IMG/VR virus record: IMGVR_UViG_3300021197_000131
Location: 1-55,166 of that record
Direction: 5' to 3' (one strand)
DNA length: 55,166 nt
Origin: a virus
Shown here: positions 43,717 through 52,444 of the stretch, in pieces
Position numbering within the stretch: position 1 is the first letter of the stretch
Layout of the letters: every line of letters begins with the position of its first letter
Notes under the pieces: generated by a model
What the model was told of the DNA's origin: nothing
Database searches by the model: none
Seen by the model: only the letters and a program-made list of their open reading frames with translations
Made by a program: the position numbers and the translations under genes

Positions 43717-45720
43717 TTAGGCTGCAATCTTGATAGTTTGTGTATTGTTATTTTGTTTAGCTATATACAGGGTTCTACTTTGTGGGGGTATAACAACTGT
43801 ATTATTATTATCTTGTGATGCTGCGTATAGAGTTCTTTGTCTGTTGTAAGCATCTGGGTCAAAATTAAATACAACACCTGTTGCAGTAAGTTGTCCTAGT
43901 GCCACCTGTAATCCAACAGATGTTAGGCTCTGTGTTGCAGGGAAAGAAAGAAGTCCAATAGAACCTGTTGCAAAGACACTATTTAAAACTTCACTAACTT
44001 TAGCTTCTAAGCCCTCAACTTCACCTGCGACAACTACGCCTGTTAAAGTGGTAGAGTTGCCAACACCTAAAGAACCTACACCACCAGAAGCACTAGCACC
44101 TGTTATTACTTGTGTTATGTTTACGACAGGATTTAGAGTGTTTACTGTTCCAGAGCTTTGTACTCCTGTCAGTGTTATACTTACACTAGTTTCTAGAGAA
44201 CCTACACTACCTGTAGCACTTACAGAGTTTAAGGCTTCTGATGTATCAGCAACTACAGAACCTAAAGCTGTTGTACCTACTACACCAGATAGACTTTCTG
44301 AAATATTTACAGATACAGAATTTACAGAACCAGCAGAGCTTACAGAGAGTAGTCTTTCTGATACATCAATTTCAAAACCGTTTATAGATACAGAAGTTAC
44401 TATGCCTGTAGAAGATACACCTGTAAGACCACTAGCTGTATGGGTTTGAAGTGTTCCAACAGAACCAGAACCCTGAACACCAACAATGCTTTTACTTACT
44501 TTAGGTTCTATTGTTCCTAAAGAAGAAGTTAGTCCACTGCTTGAAATGGCTATGTTAGAAGTTGCAGTAAGTGTAAGTGTACCTACACCTGATGTAGAAG
44601 ATACACTAGCTAACTTTTCTGTAACGTTTATTTGTACTGTGTTTAGGTTGGTTGTAGAACTAACACTGTTTAATTTTTCAGAAAGTTTTACTTCTACTGT
44701 ACCTATAGAACCAGTTGTGTTTACACCTACAAGACCTGAACCTGTTAGTGTTTCAACAGCATTTACTGAGCCAGTACTGTTTACACTTCCTAACGACTCT
44801 ATTATATTTACAGTTACAGAGTTAATATGTCCTGTACTGCTAACACTTGACAGAGCTTCAGTTGGTTTTTCTTCTAGTGTATTTACAAAACCTGTAGCTT
44901 CTACTGAAGAGGTTACGAAATTAAGGTTGACTGTTACTGTATTAGTATTTGCAGAAGCAGAAATTGACCCTATACTTTCTGCTATATGAACTTGTGTTGT
45001 ACCTAAAGATGTTGTACCTTGTACGCCTAATATAGAACCAATAGCTGTTACTTCTATAGAACCTAAATGTGCAGTAGCTCCAAGACCAGAAACACCTATA
45101 TTAATATTTTCTGTTACAGTATTTACTGAACCTGTAGCTGAAAGACCAGTTAGTGTAACTGTGTTACTATGCTCTAAAGTTCCTACTGAACCTGTAGAAG
45201 AAACACCAGTAAGAGTAAAAGTATTACTATTTTCTAAAGTTCCTACTGATACAGTGCCTTGTACTGAACTAAGGGTGATATCTATATTAGTTGTTACAGA
45301 GTTTACTTGCCCTGTACCACTTACACCAGATAGACTTTCAGTTGGTTTTTCTTCTAGTGTATTTACTGCACCTGTACCCAATACACCAGTAAGTGTAACT
45401 GTATTGCTGTGTTCTAGTGTGCCTATTGATCCAGTACTTTGTACTGCTGTAGGTGTTACAGTTAGATTTACAGATACTGAACTAATACCTGTTGTACCAG
45501 AAACACTGCCTAGCTTTTCTTCTGTATTGAAACTTATAGTTCCTACAGCACCTGTAGCACTTACAGAGCTAAGTCTTTCTGAGATGTCAACTTCAAAGCC
45601 ACCAACAGATAGACCTGCTACTGCAGTACTAGCAGAGACACTACCTAAAGAAACATCTGCAGATACAGATGAAGATGATACACCAAAGGGCGTTTCAGAT
45701 AGTGCTGCGAAACCGAACAT
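43717..45720 (-). CDS. Fibre protein made of 20-residue repeats, 667 aa
   Basis: N-terminus MFGFAALSETPFGVSS, then about 30 tandem units of exactly 20 residues with the form LTGVSSTGSVGTLEHSNTVT, covering nearly residues 30-610, and a C-terminal cap with twin motifs RTLYAASQDN and RTLYIAKQNN plus TVVIPPQ. The 60-bp period shows in the DNA. Each unit likely forms two beta strands, giving a long solenoid or triple-helical shaft. A tail or head fibre is the natural reading. Confidence 0.8.
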   Translation of the reverse strand: MFGFAALSETPFGVSSSSVSADVSLGSVSASTAVAGLSVGGFEVDISERLSSVSATGAVGTISFNTEEKLGSVSGTTGISSVSVNLTVTPTAVQSTGSIGTLEHSNTVTLTGVLGTGAVNTLEEKPTESLSGVSGTGQVNSVTTNIDITLSSVQGTVSVGTLENSNTFTLTGVSSTGSVGTLEHSNTVTLTGLSATGSVNTVTENINIGVSGLGATAHLGSIEVTAIGSILGVQGTTSLGTTQVHIAESIGSISASANTNTVTVNLNFVTSSVEATGFVNTLEEKPTEALSSVSSTGHINSVTVNIIESLGSVNSTGSVNAVETLTGSGLVGVNTTGSIGTVEVKLSEKLNSVSSTTNLNTVQINVTEKLASVSSTSGVGTLTLTATSNIAISSSGLTSSLGTIEPKVSKSIVGVQGSGSVGTLQTHTASGLTGVSSTGIVTSVSINGFEIDVSERLLSVSSAGSVNSVSVNISESLSGVVGTTALGSVVADTSEALNSVSATGSVGSLETSVSITLTGVQSSGTVNTLNPVVNITQVITGASASGGVGSLGVGNSTTLTGVVVAGEVEGLEAKVSEVLNSVFATGSIGLLSFPATQSLTSVGLQVALGQLTATGVVFNFDPDAYNRQRTLYAASQDNNNTVVIPPQSRTLYIAKQNNNTQTIKIAA

Positions 45721-45731
45721 TTAGTTTATCC

Positions 45732-46430
45732 TTAGTCTACTTGTTCTCTTAGTTGTTTAAGAACCCTTTCACGCTTTCTAGCTTGAATAAATTTATCGTA
45801 TAAATAAGATAAGGGTTTATTCCTATGAGCATTTTTCATATTTAAACAAGCCATTGAATCACGTTTTAATGAGTCTGTTATTGTAACTCGTTGTAAATCT
45901 ACAGGTTTATCGAATCTAACGTAGGCCATAGGTTCACCTGCCTTTATTTCAATAGGTTCGCCACTGTATCTAGACGCAAAGCTAACACCTCTAAACCACT
46001 TACCACAATCAAAAGAACCTGAAATACCGTAGATTTTATTGGTATGATAGTAAGGTGGGAGTATTGTCATTATAGTGCTTTCTTCAGCAAAGAAATGGTA
46101 AAGACCATCACCTAACCATTGCACAACATTTTTACCTTCCTTGGTTTGATGCTTGCCTAACTCTACATCTTGTCCTTTTTTTATTACTGCATATGCATAA
46201 CCTGTTCCACTTGGTTTTAATACAATCTTAATATCTACAGGTGCGTTGACAGCATACATATTTTTTGCTGCAGCAATCATTGAGGGACAAAGTAATAAGC
46301 CATCTAGATCATTTTCTTTAAAATGTCTCTTTATACTTTTAAATAAAGGTTCAGGCTTTTCCATTGATAACTCTAATAGATGCCCTTGTATACTTCCAAA
46401 GTATACTGTTGTTTTATTCTTTACCGCCAT
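45732..46430 (-). CDS. Hypothetical protein in accessory cassette, 232 aa
   Basis: An alpha/beta protein with hydrophobic strands (VDIKIVLKPSGTGYAYAVI; AYVRFDKPVDLQRVTI) and a very basic C-terminus (KFIQARKRERVLKQLREQ). The overall pattern faintly recalls DUF6065 proteins of phage cassettes. No catalytic motif is evident. It overlaps the oxygenase gene upstream by 10 nt, so it belongs to the same translation unit. Confidence 0.65.
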   Translation of the reverse strand: MAVKNKTTVYFGSIQGHLLELSMEKPEPLFKSIKRHFKENDLDGLLLCPSMIAAAKNMYAVNAPVDIKIVLKPSGTGYAYAVIKKGQDVELGKHQTKEGKNVVQWLGDGLYHFFAEESTIMTILPPYYHTNKIYGISGSFDCGKWFRGVSFASRYSGEPIEIKAGEPMAYVRFDKPVDLQRVTITDSLKRDSMACLNMKNAHRNKPLSYLYDKFIQARKRERVLKQLREQVD

Positions 46431-46972
46431 TTTGGGCCTTCAAACCAAGCTACAAGACTTCTCCTTAAACCTGATGTAACAGGGGTGACTTGGTGGCTTG
46501 TATAGCTTGGGAAGATTAAAATACTACCTTTCTGTTTAGCTTGCTCTGGATCAGGGCTTTCACCTTCAATAATAAAATCTCCACCTTCGTACTCATCAGG
46601 ATCACTTAATTGTACTGTTACAGATAATTTTCTATCATAGGGCTGAGTATTCATCCAATCAACATCAACATGCCAACCGTAGTGTCCTTTTACTTTTCCA
46701 TCATACTCTGTGTATTGCAAGTCTGCGACATTATCTACATGAAAGCCATAAGCAAGACGATTGGCTTTTTTAACATATTCAAAAAGGTAGTCTCTCATAT
46801 CTGATCTATGGGAAAGCCAACCTATTTTACTATTTCTGTTGTGTAAACCTTCATCATTGTTTTGATTAAATGTTGTTGCTTGTATTAACTCCTGATCCGA
46901 TCCCGTATCTATCACTGTAGATACAAAACCTTCATCTGCTGCACCAGAAAATAATTGCCACATTGGTTTCAT
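46421..46972 (-). CDS. 2OG-Fe(II) oxygenase (PKHD-type)
   Basis: A 183-residue double-stranded beta-helix oxygenase. Iron ligands: His101 and Asp103 in YGWHVDVDW, His160 in SYTSHQVTPV; Arg170/Arg171 (LRRSLVAWFEGP) binds 2-oxoglutarate. QLSDPDEYEGGDFII is also typical of prolyl-4-hydroxylase/PiuC relatives. It would hydroxylate a protein side chain or small molecule. It is 4 nt-coupled to the radical SAM gene. Confidence 0.88.
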   Translation of the reverse strand: MKPMWQLFSGAADEGFVSTVIDTGSDQELIQATTFNQNNDEGLHNRNSKIGWLSHRSDMRDYLFEYVKKANRLAYGFHVDNVADLQYTEYDGKVKGHYGWHVDVDWMNTQPYDRKLSVTVQLSDPDEYEGGDFIIEGESPDPEQAKQKGSILIFPSYTSHQVTPVTSGLRRSLVAWFEGPKWR

Positions 46973-47949
46973 TTATATTCTCCAAGGTTAAAATCTGTTC
47001 CTAGCATATTTCCTATATGCCTATCCTTGGTACTATACACTAAAACTTCTGGGTCTTCAACTAAAAAATCACACGACTTGCAGTAGTCAGGGAAATCTTT
47101 ATTTCTGTGTTGCTCTCTTAGTTTGTTGTAAGCCTCACCATTCCAAACTTCTTTTAAAGTATTTGTACTTAAATGACCTAATACTGCAGCTTCATCATTA
47201 CCTAAAACCTGACAACAAGGATGTACTGCTGCTGTATTACCATCATTTCCCCCTGCTCTAACGACCACATCAGGGGAAAAGGGTCTTCCACATCCTACCT
47301 TTTTACCTTCTCTTTTATACGTACTGTCATATGTACCAGACCAGTTATGCATACGCCAGATGTCAATATCCATATCATCAAAAAGAGATTTATATGCTTC
47401 TACTTCTACTGGCTCATTATCGTTGTTTAGTATTAAATGATATGCTGCTACTGTACAATCTTTATCTTTAGCATACTCTCGCATCTCTTTAGCATTTTGT
47501 ATAACTAAGTTAAAGAAAGGACTGTTCATCCACTTTTTATATGTCTCTTCGTTGTAACCTATAATAGAAAATCTAAAAAAGTTAAGCCCGGCATCAACCG
47601 TTTCTTTCATAAAAGACCCACGCATATTCTTACCATTAGAATATATGTAAGCCTTTGCTCCGTATTTTCTTACAATCTCAATATATCTTGGAAGGTTTCT
47701 ATTTAAAGTAGGCTCTCCTGATCCTTCAAGATTTATAATTTTTACTTTGTGTTCTGCACACTGAGCAACAATGTCTTCAAACTGATCCAGTGGCATCTTC
47801 TTTAAGAAACCTTTTGGTCTTTTAGGGTCTGTTTGAGGACACATTTGACAGGTGTAATTACACCCACCATTTATCTCAATTACGGCTCTTTCTAAGGAAG
47901 GTATTGTAAGTAAGTCTGTATTTGTGTTCAGGGTTGCATTTGTATCCAT
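46969..47949 (-). CDS. Radical SAM enzyme with SPASM-like C-terminus
   Basis: A 326-residue radical SAM protein with the cluster motif Cys30-x3-Cys34-x2-Cys37 (GGCNYTCQMCPQ), GSGEPTLN for SAM binding and C-terminal Cys at 220, 245, 246, 290 and 293 (HPCCQV; YCKSCDF) that could hold an auxiliary 4Fe-4S cluster, as in peptide-modifying or dehydrogenase SPASM enzymes. Its ATG lies 74 nt inside the upstream oxygenase gene. Substrate unknown; neighbours are oxygenases and a glycosyltransferase-like protein. Confidence 0.9.
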   Translation of the reverse strand: MDTNATLNTNTDLLTIPSLERAVIEINGGCNYTCQMCPQTDPKRPKGFLKKMPLDQFEDIVAQCAEHKVKIINLEGSGEPTLNRNLPRYIEIVRKYGAKAYIYSNGKNMRGSFMKETVDAGLNFFRFSIIGYNEETYKKWMNSPFFNLVIQNAKEMREYAKDKDCTVAAYHLILNNDNEPVEVEAYKSLFDDMDIDIWRMHNWSGTYDSTYKREGKKVGCGRPFSPDVVVRAGGNDGNTAAVHPCCQVLGNDEAAVLGHLSTNTLKEVWNGEAYNKLREQHRNKDFPDYCKSCDFLVEDPEVLVYSTKDRHIGNMLGTDFNLGEYK

Positions 47950-48430
47950 GCCAAGTTATTCCTTTTATACCCGAAAAAATTAAAGCTCTATTTGGTTTCC
48001 ATTTAATTTCTGTAAAAAAATCTTTGTTTGCTTTATGTATTAATGTCCCTGTCCCTTCGTCAGGAGCAATGTACACAACTACACTCATTATTTTTGAGGG
48101 GTGTTCAAAATGAAGAGGGTACTCAAAACCTTTACCGTCTTTTGGTACAATAAAATTAAACCATCTTTCTAAGGTAAATCCGTATTTTTCATCAAAGTCT
48201 TTTATATCATCCCTGTTTTTATTCAGTTCTTTAAAGAAAGATTCATAGTCGTGATTATCTAACTTAGCTATTTCTAGTGGGACTTCACATTTATTTCTAT
48301 CTAAGGGTTTTAAGTCATATTGACTATAAGCTTCTTTTGCTCCTTGTTTTATTTTTTCTAAAACATCACTAGAGTAAAAGTCATCAATTACAATATAAGG
48401 CCACGGCTCTTGAAAGTATTCCACTTGCAT
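47876..48430 (-). CDS. 2OG-Fe(II) oxygenase-like protein, 184 aa
   Basis: N-terminus EPWPYIVIDDFYSSDVLEKI is the classic opening of small 2OG oxygenases of phages. Candidate ligands are His107/Glu109 in LHFEHPSKIMSVV, distal His161 in TWHGYKC and Arg172 in HKYRLTYNTF. KPNRALIFSG is also typical. Located between radical SAM and glycosyltransferase-like genes with overlaps at both ends. Confidence 0.8.
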   Translation of the reverse strand: MQVEYFQEPWPYIVIDDFYSSDVLEKIKQGAKEAYSQYDLKPLDRNKCEVPLEIAKLDNHDYESFFKELNKNRDDIKDFDEKYGFTLERWFNFIVPKDGKGFEYPLHFEHPSKIMSVVVYIAPDEGTGTLIHKANKDFFTEIKWKPNRALIFSGIKGITWHGYKCNPEHKYRLTYNTFLRKSRN

Positions 48431-49296
48431 ACGTCTTTGTCTTTCTTACCTTCTTCATATAAATCTATTCTATAGTTTATACGTTCTTCAAAGTCTTTAC
48501 GATTCATGTCATTACAGATTACAGCATAAAACCAATTTAACCATTTTGTTCTATGTTTTTGTTGCACAGGTTTAACATCTAATATACTACTATCTAACTT
48601 AGGTATTAGAGGTATTAAATCAATCATTGGCCCTGCTCTCATCATAAACGTAGGTTTATTTTTAACAAGAGCTTTAAATGACAATGCACTATCTGAACTA
48701 AATACAAGATTTGCACCTTCAACTAATTCTTCACTACGATAACCATGACAGTATTTTGTGTATTCTGTAACATATCCTTTTTTATTAGCATGTGTCCAGA
48801 ATTTGGGATAGTTTTGGTGTACATCTGCCGCAGGGTGTGTTTTAAATAAAGTATATTGTTTGTTTTCTGTTGCCCACCTCATAGCAGCTAAAGTATTAAA
48901 GTAGTCTTTTGGGTATATCATTTGTAAACAAAACAAATTATAGGGTCTGTCTTTTACAAAAATACCTTCATGTTGTTTATACCTGTCATTAGACAGGTTG
49001 TAAAAAATATCGTATATGTCTTCGTTTTCATCTGCATTTAAGTAGTCCATAGTCTTATCGTATCTAGTAATGTAAAGACCTTTTGACAACCTCATATGTG
49101 GAAAGTTACCAAACCCCCCTGAAAATTCATAGTCTGGTGCAATTTGTTCCCATCCAACAGTTCGACCATCTAAACGTTTTCCTAAAACTTCACACATCCG
49201 TTTCATTAAAGGCACTAACTCTGCCTTACCGTGTGCATGTTGTCTTACTTTATACCAGTGAAGATAAAACTTACTGACGTAATTTGTAATGTCCAT
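48388..49296 (-). CDS. Capsule-type glycosyltransferase-like protein, 302 aa
   Basis: A 302-residue soluble protein. The C-terminal half shows YTLFKTHPAADVHQNYPKFW, then GYRSEELVEGANLVFSSDSA and ALVKNKPTFMMRAGP, the layout of capsule polysaccharide (Kdo-transferase/Capsule_synth) type glycosyltransferases, where His-Pro and the Ser/Gly nucleotide-sugar region sit in this order. Identification is by pattern and moderate. Might glycosylate a virion protein or alter host surface sugar. Confidence 0.6.
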   Translation of the reverse strand: MDITNYVSKFYLHWYKVRQHAHGKAELVPLMKRMCEVLGKRLDGRTVGWEQIAPDYEFSGGFGNFPHMRLSKGLYITRYDKTMDYLNADENEDIYDIFYNLSNDRYKQHEGIFVKDRPYNLFCLQMIYPKDYFNTLAAMRWATENKQYTLFKTHPAADVHQNYPKFWTHANKKGYVTEYTKYCHGYRSEELVEGANLVFSSDSALSFKALVKNKPTFMMRAGPMIDLIPLIPKLDSSILDVKPVQQKHRTKWLNWFYAVICNDMNRKDFEERINYRIDLYEEGKKDKDVCKWNTFKSRGLIL

Positions 49297-49788
49297 TCAA
49301 GATAGAAACCCAAACGAAAATCTACGTCCTTTAGCCCAGATCGTATGCCAAAACAAATCATCTTTGGATATTTTAAATTGATTAACGTTCCAACCTATAT
49401 CATCTTGGACAGAAACTATTTCTCCTGTTTCAACATCTTTATACCTAAAGATACCACCATCCATAGAAAAAGTATAATAAGTTCTTATTCCCTCTAAATC
49501 ACTGTTTGTATGCCACGGCAACATAGTTTTTGGGGGGTAATAAATACTATTAGTAACACGTTTTGCTTTAAGTATTTCTCTGCATTGATCTAATTGTGAA
49601 TCATAGCCTCGTAAAGGTATACCAGAAAAGGTAGTAGATACGTCTTTTTTAGGTATAGGTCTTTCTAAAAACTGTTCTTCTGTAAAACTTTTATTGATCT
49701 TTCCTTCAACCCAAACAGCCTTACTTGCCATTATTAATTCACCAAGTATTTTTGTAACTTCGTCTAAGGGCTTTTCTTTTGTTAGCAT
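49297..49788 (-). CDS. 2OG-Fe(II) oxygenase-like protein, 163 aa
   Basis: Pattern of a compact DSBH oxygenase: YYPPKTMLPWHTNSDLEG with His93, IRTYYTFSMDGGIFRYKD, DDIGWNVNQF and LFWHTIWAKGRRFSFGF with His148 and Arg155/156. The first ligand motif reads His-Thr-Asn rather than His-x-Asp/Glu, which could mean altered chemistry or a non-canonical ligand such as Asp97. Adjoins the glycosyltransferase-like gene. Confidence 0.75.
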   Translation of the reverse strand: MLTKEKPLDEVTKILGELIMASKAVWVEGKINKSFTEEQFLERPIPKKDVSTTFSGIPLRGYDSQLDQCREILKAKRVTNSIYYPPKTMLPWHTNSDLEGIRTYYTFSMDGGIFRYKDVETGEIVSVQDDIGWNVNQFKISKDDLFWHTIWAKGRRFSFGFLS

Positions 49789-49790
49789 TA

Positions 49791-50219
49791 TTATAAACCT
49801 AGCATGTCTTTCATAGCTTGTTGCTCTGCTTGTGTTAAAATGTTATCTTCAAAATAAGCAGCCACAGCTTCATTTCCTAAAATTTGAACTGCAACAAGTT
49901 GTATAACATCAAAATCATCAGGTTGATCTTCTTTATTTAAGTGTGAATATATAGAAAGATATTCATGCAACTTCTTTTTATGTCTAATACTTCCAAAAGA
50001 ATACACGTTATCAGGTACAAATGCTTTACCAGTATCTTTGTTATAGTGTAACACAGTAAACTCATCTGATTCGTATGAGCCTATTTGTTCGCCTGAAAGT
50101 TCCACTTGAAAAGCAACTCTTCCCTCTCTGTCTATTATTTTTTCCACAAAAGAATCGTCAAATTTTTCATCACTGGACGTACAATAGCTAGTGTCTGCGT
50201 TAAATATAAACCAAGTCAT
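49791..50219 (-). CDS. Hypothetical protein at cassette edge, 142 aa
   Basis: N-terminus MTWFIFNADTSYCTSSDEKF followed by an acidic beta-rich domain and a helical end (NILTQAEQQAMKDMLGL). It sits between the collagen-like fibre gene (2 nt away) and the oxygenase cassette, so it may be a fibre chaperone or assembly protein. Not recognised. Confidence 0.6.
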   Translation of the reverse strand: MTWFIFNADTSYCTSSDEKFDDSFVEKIIDREGRVAFQVELSGEQIGSYESDEFTVLHYNKDTGKAFVPDNVYSFGSIRHKKKLHEYLSIYSHLNKEDQPDDFDVIQLVAVQILGNEAVAAYFEDNILTQAEQQAMKDMLGL

Positions 50220-50221
50220 TA

Positions 50222-52444
50222 TTAATATGTCCTATACACTTTTCTGAAAGCCCACCATGTAGTATAATAATCCCCACCCCAAGCATCTGTACCTGATCTG
50301 TCAAGTTTCATAAAAGGCCAATCATTGTCATCCTGAGCATTAAACCAGTTACTAAAATCATCTTGTTCATAGTTACCGCCGGGAACCCAATAAGTAGAAG
50401 CCCTCCAAGGGCCATACAAAAGACCACTAAAGGATGCACCTGACGGTCCTGTTGATCCTGTTGGTCCTGTCGGGCCAGTAGGTCCAGTTGGTCCAGTTGG
50501 GCCTGTACCACCATCACTACCTGCTGCTCCATTACTACCTGCAGGTCCAGTAGGTCCAGTTGGCCCTGTCGGCCCTTGCAGTGCTGCATTAGCAATAGTT
50601 TGCTTTTCCCATGCACTAGCACTAACATCATATACAGGGATAAGATCAGAAGACCCTGCATCTGTACCAGTAGAAAATGCAGTAAGGGCAGCACCTACAT
50701 TAGTTGCATCTGTTACATCTGAACTGGCTTCAACACCATCTAACTTTAGGCCATCTGCAGAAACATCTCTACCGTCTACAGTTCCTGAGACAACGACATT
50801 GCCAGTTACGTCAATACCTGTGGAAGTGGTGGCTAGTTTTTCATTGTTATTATGGTACAGCTTTACGTCAGAGTTATCGTTAAATTGAGCTAGAACCTGA
50901 GAGCTTTGATCCCGAAACTCAATAGTTCCTGCTGATGACGATCTTACGATTAGCTTACCCGTGGCGTTATCAATCTCCGTGTTTGTCCCATCATGATAAA
51001 TCTGTAGGTCACTACCTGTTCCAAAGATAGCCTTGCCATTATCTGCAAATTCGGCGTTACCAGTTACATCAATACCTGTTGCGTCTGTGCGGAGTTTTTC
51101 TTGATTGTCATAATAGAGCCGAACACCACCATCTTTAAATGCTCGGAGCATACTTTCAGAACCACCTTGCAAACGTATTTCAGAACCATCTGTGCGTAGA
51201 TATAGATTGCCAGTACCATCGTCTTGTATATAGCTATGAGAACCATCATGATAAATCTGTAGGTCACTATCTGCACCAAACTTGGCCTTGACGTTATCTC
51301 CGTGTGAGACATCACCAGTAAACGTACCCCCTGCTTTAGGCATGGCTGCATCAGCAGTAGTACCATCTGCAGCAACATCTCTACCGTCTACAGTGCCTGA
51401 TACAGTTATGTTGCCAGTTACGTTAATACCTGTGTTAGTTGTTGATAACTTTTCTGAGCCTTGATAATAAAGTTCTACGTCACCATCATTGGTTGCTCTA
51501 ACTGCGTTACGGATATTACCTGCACTATGCTGTTTTATAACAAGGTTTGAACTACCATCTTGGTTGCTGATTTGCATATCAGAACTGGCTGATGTACTTT
51601 CTTGTTGAATTACTAACCCACCATTACTATCATACATACGTCCAGTTGTGCCATAAGTGCTATCTTTAAATTCAAATTCCATAAAGTCATTAAACGTCAA
51701 AATATTTGCTGACTTATCAAAAACAAGATTTGAATTTGCGCCTGTAAACGTCACATCATCAGTAAACGTTCCACCTGCTTTTGGCATAGCTGCATCAGCA
51801 GTAGAACCTTGTGCAGCAGTTGCATAGTCAGAGCTATCAAAGGCTTTAACTTGAGAAAGGTTAGTTACCTCACTATCCATCAAAGCACCTGCAGAAGTTA
51901 CGTTGGCTGTATCTGTTACATCTGCTGATGCTTCAATATTATTTAACTTATTATGATCAGCATCAGTAAAGACGTTACTATCAGATGCAGCTTCAACGGC
52001 GGCTCTTATCTCTGCGTTTGTCTGATCTGCCGTAGCACTAGCTTCAATACCGTCTAGCTTATCACCGTCTGTAACAAGGTCACGTCCATCTATAGTGCCG
52101 GGAATAGATATATTACCTGATGCATCTTCATATACTGCTTTATCTGCAGGATATGTCATAAATATATTTTTAGTACCTGCAGAAAAATCTACAGCATTAT
52201 TAGAATTAGAACTGGCTAGGATAGTAGTTCTAGCTAAAGTATTACCACTACTAGTATAAGTACCAATACCTACTTCAAACTCATTATCATCACCTTGTTG
52301 CTCAATAGCATAGTAAGTGGTGTCGGCATTAGAAAGGGCAGAACTAAAGGTTTTAAACTTAGTTACTGCCCCTCCCAAAGAGATACTACCTGTACCTGTA
52401 GTTGTGGTTGTTTCTTTAACCCTATCTTTTACGACAAGTGCCAT
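50222..52444 (-). CDS. Tail fibre with collagen-like repeats, 740 aa
   Basis: N-terminus [20 protein letters not shown] and [20 protein letters not shown] is a virion-attachment domain known from marine phage fibres. The middle has [14 protein letters not shown], repeated [10 protein letters not shown] elements and copies of [10 protein letters not shown]. Residues about 620-670 form a collagen-like tract of G-P-T triplets, followed by an aromatic C-terminal tip ([18 protein letters not shown]). Likely the receptor-binding fibre; internal DNA repeats favour variation. Confidence 0.82.

Follow-up and report, generated by a model that had tools for sequence, protein, structure and literature searches.

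A seven-gene cassette flanked by fibre genes in an HMO-2011-type podovirus: a putative fibre-modification island in two modules

The window, as we call the whole stretch of DNA that was analysed, is the 55,166-base IMG/VR virus record IMGVR_UViG_3300021197_000131 (positions 1 to 55,166), and it carries a cassette of seven minus-strand open reading frames (ORFs), g1 to g7, at 45732-50219. The cassette is composed of two modules: module A, consisting of g7-g6-g5-g4-g3 and often joined in relatives by a second radical S-adenosylmethionine (SAM) gene, and module B, consisting of g2 and perhaps g1. We lean towards reading the block as a fibre-modification island, in which module B would act on the collagen-like shaft of the adjacent tail fibre while module A is co-inherited with the tip of that fibre. 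The two modules are separable: g7-g6-g5-g4-g3 occurs with no collagen ORF found nearby and without g2 in many phages (L098, L101, L103, L106-L109), whose fibre before the core genes still ends in the tip, and g2 accompanies Gly-Pro collagen without module A genes in dozens of others. This separability largely refutes the proposal, made in a preliminary description of this DNA, that all seven genes form one pathway hydroxylating and glycosylating Gly-Pro-Thr collagen repeats; even though the genes make up one overlapping operon adjoining a Gly-Pro-Thr fibre and g2 tracks such collagen, we consider a single pathway quite improbable. What survives of the proposed modification of a virion protein on collagen-like repeats is the part that concerns g2, which is well supported, as relatives of g2 follow Gly-Pro-X collagen.

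Layout and inheritance of the cassette

The preliminary description had recorded the seven ORFs, their overlaps, their position between a 20-residue-repeat protein (left) and a collagen-like fibre (right), and their A+T-richness, all of which hold. Four neighbouring pairs overlap and the others abut within 1-2 nt, and the guanine-plus-cytosine (GC) content is 0.342, about 5.8 standard deviations (SD) below the mean of 0.427 (SD 0.015, minimum 0.386) of 167 segments of cassette size elsewhere in the record. Low GC marks recent acquisition or mobility and, together with the absence of the block from some relatives, is what speaks for an auxiliary-metabolism or small-molecule cluster that has no relation to the fibre and happens to occupy a hotspot of recombination between the fibre genes. 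This explanation is most implausible in our view, as the fixed position and order, the linkage to the tip and an enzyme content that matches collagen composition all count against it.

The comparison set comprised more than 100 related virus fragments, in which L-numbers (e.g. L002) designate the contigs or loci compared. The capsid protein is 75% identical to that of Roseobacter phage CRP-2 and 58% identical to that of HMO-2011, and the window is therefore assigned to the HMO-2011-type podoviruses. With CRP-2, CRP-603 and CRP-207 of this type it shares capsid proteins at 58-76% identity and related tail genes, but these phages have neither the cassette nor the tip domain; no cassette was found at the corresponding place in CRP-2, CRP-603, CRP-207 or HMO-2011. 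Among other relatives, its genes co-occur as an ordered, co-inherited cassette, which is what a check of the presence and absence of the block was expected to reveal if the genes belong together. The same order, with partial gene losses and additions, is found in L001/L004, L002/L003, L062/L063, L081, L082 and L104, and in a second group (L092-L103, L106-L112) the core is shorter and runs g7-g6-g5-g4-second radical SAM-g3. In L081 and in the L101/L103/L106 group, the cassette is located on different tail backbones.

Module B and the collagen-like shaft

The proposed substrate of module B is a collagen-like tail fibre of 740 aa (50222..52444, minus strand), identified by tail-fibre PHROGs and by the collagen family PF01391 (30.6 bits, cut-off 27.2). 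Residue counts define within it a collagen segment of 16 Gly-X-Y triplets (50432..50575, minus strand), in which proline occupies 62% of X positions, while threonine occupies 62% and lysine 0% of Y positions.

The g2 gene (46421..46972, minus strand) encodes a 183-aa PKHD-type 2-oxoglutarate (2OG)-Fe(II) oxygenase, a predicted collagen prolyl hydroxylase on account of its family, its nearest structures and its association with Gly-Pro collagen. It passes the 2OG-FeII_Oxy_3 cut-off (PF13640, 54.6 bits against 27), and its HxD..H iron triad (H101, D103, H160) and 2OG-binding arginine (R170) are intact and invariant in homologue alignments. Its best solved relatives are the PKHD structures PiuC and Sbal_3634. 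Since its scores lie far below the NCBIfam equivalog cut-offs for the PKHD-type hydroxylase YbiX/PiuC (74.2 bits against 143, and 42.5 against 399), g2 is a relative of these proteins and not an orthologue. Known PKHD-type and prolyl-4-hydroxylases (PiuC/YbiX and the Bacillus anthracis prolyl-4-hydroxylase, P4H) thus resemble g2 in PF13640, in the HxD..H..R motif and in the PKHD fold of the nearest solved structures, but g2 differs in being phage-encoded, in its distance from the NCBIfam cut-offs and in its tie to X-position proline followed by threonine; in collagen-like peptides, the B. anthracis P4H hydroxylates proline at X as well as at Y (PMC8968730).

The association with collagen was examined in a sample limited to the 80 proteins nearest to collagen-linked g2, with 74 clusters at 95% identity. 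A collagen ORF lies within 9 kb in 63/74 clusters, and 10 of the remaining 11 have less than 2 kb of upstream sequence; at control radical SAM loci the corresponding figure is 1/74. Proline makes up at least 13% of X positions in 62 of the 63 clusters with collagen and is almost absent from Y. At loci that have the PLOD fusion described below and lack g2, proline occupies no more than 1% of X positions, a contrast that comprises 9 fusion-only clusters. On family membership and this genomic association, we consider it highly probable that g2 is a hydroxylase of X-position prolines in the fibre, which in the window would be those of the 16-triplet Gly-Pro-Thr segment. Such hydroxylation would presumably stabilise the triple helix or create attachment sites for sugars. 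Some observations weigh against this assignment: the pairing of g2 with X-position proline changes state only twice on the tree of the PLOD fusion, so that independent events are few; L237 has g2 without X-position proline; and Gly-Pro collagen does not require g2, as a short Gly-Pro stretch in CRP-207 occurs without it. A broader role of g2 as a marker of any collagen fibre was considered and dropped, as cassettes with Lys-rich, Pro-free collagen lack g2.

The last gene of the cassette, g1 (45732..46430, minus strand; 232 aa), has no assigned function and is found together with Gly-Pro collagen and g2. Distant relatives (34-36% identity) adjoin g2 and Gly-Pro collagen in the absence of the tip-linked core in L195, L202, L242 and L244, and for this reason g1 is a possible member of the collagen module. 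Structure prediction from 4 sequences gave no usable model of g1 (predicted local distance difference test score, pLDDT, of 37).

The preliminary description had also envisaged lysine hydroxylation followed by sugar addition. This idea is well supported for sister cassettes and does not fit the window, which has no PLOD glycosyltransferase (GT) and 2OG fusion and whose collagen has no lysine in Y. In place of g1, L062/L063, L104 and L082 have an FkbM-type methyltransferase and a GT25/PLOD-type GT/2OG fusion (PLOD-type GT, 8e-37), and their fibres carry Gly-X-Lys repeats; Pfam GT25, PLOD-type GT and 2OG domains identify the fusion beside these fibres at L063 7050-8786, L104 6940-8646 and L082 9567-10841. 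Among solved structures, the fusion is nearest to human LH3, and its GT25 part to procollagen galactosyltransferase 1. The fusion was found in 48 IMG/VR loci. Across the 63 g2 clusters with collagen, it is present in 36/36 with more than 10% lysine in Y and in 0/27 with 1% or less (Fisher 2e-18; 7e-17 after removal of four short contigs). On the g2 tree, the fusion undergoes 8 or more changes of state, and the independent pairs of fusion and Y-position lysine are all concordant, with 3 on well supported branches and 8 on the best tree.

For cultured phages, the expectation relating enzymes to collagen composition was fixed before the sequences were inspected, and all cases agreed with it. CRP-6, which has the fusion without g2 (gp58, L255 6944-8713), shows an X-position proline fraction of 0.06 and a Y-position lysine fraction of 0.26. 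S-CAM9, S-PRM1 and S-8S56, which have a g2 homologue and the fusion (S-CAM9 gp218, L256 6875-8716; S-PRM1 gp162), show 0.38-0.53 and 0.37-0.44, respectively. Module B enzymes are therefore also present in the cultured phages CRP-6, S-CAM9 and S-PRM1, where the fusion is annotated merely as a hypothetical protein; its 2OG part is seen by Pfam in the IMG/VR copies and in CRP-6.

The sister cassettes recall the animal enzymes LH3/PLOD and COLGALT1 and the mimivirus collagen lysyl hydroxylase-glycosyltransferase L230 in that they encode, beside Gly-X-Lys collagen, a protein with GT25, PLOD-GT and 2OG domains; they differ in that the phage protein unites all three domains, and the window lacks the fusion. 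The bifunctional lysyl hydroxylase-glycosyltransferase of mimivirus is cited in PMC8968730 as modifying collagen; the same paper describes phage collagens as short and collagen hydroxylation and glycosylation as known in giant viruses (PMC8968730). Bacteria and viruses were said to be without collagen prolyl hydroxylases (Ghosh et al. 2012, PMC3368898), and our search of the open-access literature found no report of phage collagen hydroxylases or of tailed phages with matched collagen-modifying enzymes. The agreement of enzyme content with collagen composition implies that in many marine phages collagen-like fibres are probably hydroxylated, and in some also glycosylated, by enzymes similar to those of the animal pathway.

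Module A and the fibre tip

Module A follows the C-terminal tip domain of the fibre, a stretch of about 70 aa (50225..50431, minus strand) that ends in FRKVYRTY and was delimited by alignment. Conserved in this domain across contigs are ISGxxY at its start, an N-x-W and, at its end, RKxYRT(Y/F). Of 25 contigs with the core cassette, 23 show the tip ending, whether or not collagen is present, and the core accompanies every tip ORF in the fetched loci (44/44), these being redundant views of the same contigs. The tip is absent from the fibres of CRP-603, CRP-207 and HMO-2011 and from the collagen fibres of phages that have only module B; a search with a single tip sequence returned close relatives only. 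DNA comparison of the window with L002 delimits the exchanged unit. Identity is 88-96% over much of the fibre gene as far as base 50447, which lies within the collagen segment; the tip and g7-g4 are mostly unalignable, with two patches at 67-68%; beyond g4 identity resumes, at 77% in g3/g2 and then at 89%. Because identity is lost in the tip and g7-g4 and kept in the flanks, these constitute the exchanged unit. Single genes recombine too, as g5 of the window is 88% identical to that of L081 and its g3 is 87-90% identical to those of L001/L002.

The first gene after the tip in nearly all cassettes is g7 (49791..50219, minus strand; 142 aa), which has no assigned function, is a possible fibre chaperone and probably helps the tip to fold. 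The 163-aa g6 (49297..49788, minus strand) gave no match in a family search, and an AlphaFold2 model built from 17 sequences (pLDDT 94) has a 2OG-dioxygenase fold that matches PHD2, AlkB and other 2OG folds (Foldseek E 1.7e-4, probability 1.0, template modelling (TM) score 0.5). The 302-aa g5 (48388..49296, minus strand) is a putative capsule-type (GT-B-like) transferase with a weak KpsS match; the window protein itself has no Pfam match, and 11/18 homologues match Capsule_synth (PF05159, best 7.6e-8), in keeping with the glycosyltransferase-like assignment proposed beforehand. A g5 relative from L108 gave no match among phage records, and no confirmed relative of the g5 family was found in bacterial genomes. 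The 184-aa g4 (47876..48430, minus strand) is a probable 2OG-Fe(II) oxygenase: the window protein matches PF13640 weakly (16.3 bits, below the cut-off of 27), and 11/14 homologues match this family (best 6.8e-6), with HxE..H..R conserved as invariant residues. No meaningful PDB match emerged for the sequence profiles of g4, g5 or g6, and profile-profile comparison among g2, g4 and g6 detected no significant similarity. The earlier count of three 2OG-type proteins (g2, g4 and g6) stands at the level of the fold, with one of them, g6, being non-canonical.

The 326-aa g3 (46969..47949, minus strand) is a radical SAM/SPASM-type enzyme, as had been proposed (PF04055, 54.9 bits; PF13186, 38 bits). 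Its CxxxCxxC motif comprises C30, C34 and C37, and its five conserved cysteines outside the SAM motif, including C-terminal ones, would place it nearer to a BtrN-like single cluster. The radical SAM dehydrogenase BtrN is also its best solved relative by profile (E 4e-13), but only the N-terminal ~100 residues align. A second radical SAM/SPASM gene, missing from the window, lies beside g4 in many relatives (e.g. L001 6615-7529, L062 4352-5275, L108 5387-6157), and in L104 (5319-6309) a radical SAM gene extends over two overlapping frames, which represents a frameshift or a sequencing error. Some cassettes of the second group carry a further protein of ~190 aa after g3 (L099 5339-5911, L106 12001-12573), which is weakly 2OG-like (Pfam E 0.005 in L099).

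The two 2OG-fold proteins, the radical SAM enzyme and the transferase would probably carry out oxidation and glycosylation, either of the tip or of something bound to it. We regard as evenly balanced the proposition that the module A enzymes act on the fibre tip, a substrate suggested by co-inheritance. Several points weigh against it. L082 and L113 have core genes without the tip; the former lacks g4 and has only a fragment of g2, and the latter, a phage of 163 kb, has no more of the core than g7-g5-g4. The acidic iron ligand that such enzymes usually have is absent from g6, in which HxN..H, and not HxD/E..H, is invariant in 17 homologues; given this HxN..H..R motif, iron binding is only putative, and g6 may be a two-His enzyme or inactive. 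Furthermore, mirror-tree analysis found that the core enzymes co-diverge with one another (rho 0.46-0.84) and not with the tip (0.03-0.31). This lack of tip-enzyme co-divergence and the occurrence of distant g3 relatives in sugar islands (PMC7029224) call for caution about the target of module A.

The same lack of co-divergence speaks for a tentative alternative, to which we give clearly less credence than to the fibre-modification island: module A may modify a host surface glycan (lipopolysaccharide or capsule), for example blocking superinfection or the binding of progeny to debris, with the enzymes travelling with the tip because the tip recognises the glycan, and with module B still modifying the collagen shaft. 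The putative capsule-type transferase g5 agrees with this explanation, as do radical SAM relatives with 50-63% identity that lie among glycosyltransferases, sugar epimerases, a carbamoyltransferase and methyltransferases in T4-like marine phages, and similar pelagimyophage genes have been interpreted as modifying the O-chain (PMC7029224). Against it stand the location of the cassette inside the cluster of structural genes, where it has a fibre gene on either side and lies directly behind the tip and g7, and the lack of recognised nucleotide-sugar synthesis or membrane flippase/transferase genes among the seven genes in domain and family searches. The T4-like islands, which are located near fibre genes in a host-recognition cluster (PMC7029224), share with the cassette the radical SAM family of g3, but differ in their partner genes, whereas the set in the window is compact and tied to one particular fibre tip. 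These T4-like relatives (L005-L061, L087) are situated inside sugar-biosynthesis islands, often beside a conserved protein of ~270-290 aa with no assigned family.

Within the fibre-modification island, a tip-linked core would add a little-known layer, the enzymatic tailoring of receptor-binding tips, with a possible effect on adsorption or stability. A more specific form of it, which we consider unlikely, is a maturation system in the tail fibre resembling those of ribosomally synthesised and post-translationally modified peptides (RiPPs), in which the radical SAM enzyme, the 2OG enzymes and the transferase would modify the variable middle of the tip and the conserved RKxYRTY end would serve as recognition element. 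If this were true, the receptor-binding surface would be chemically diversified beyond the twenty amino acids, atop an animal-like hydroxylated collagen shaft.

Flanking sequence and DNA-level searches

Promoter and terminator scans of the cassette gave counts below or near shuffle expectation, an Rfam search returned no match, and the cassette DNA had no match among 50,697 phage records. The 20-residue-repeat protein that forms the left boundary of the cassette (43717..45720, minus strand; 667 aa) was recognised by its self-identity, which is 28.7% at lag 20 and ~10% at other lags. It is 92% identical in L002 and only partly alignable in L001, and thus varies strongly among close relatives.

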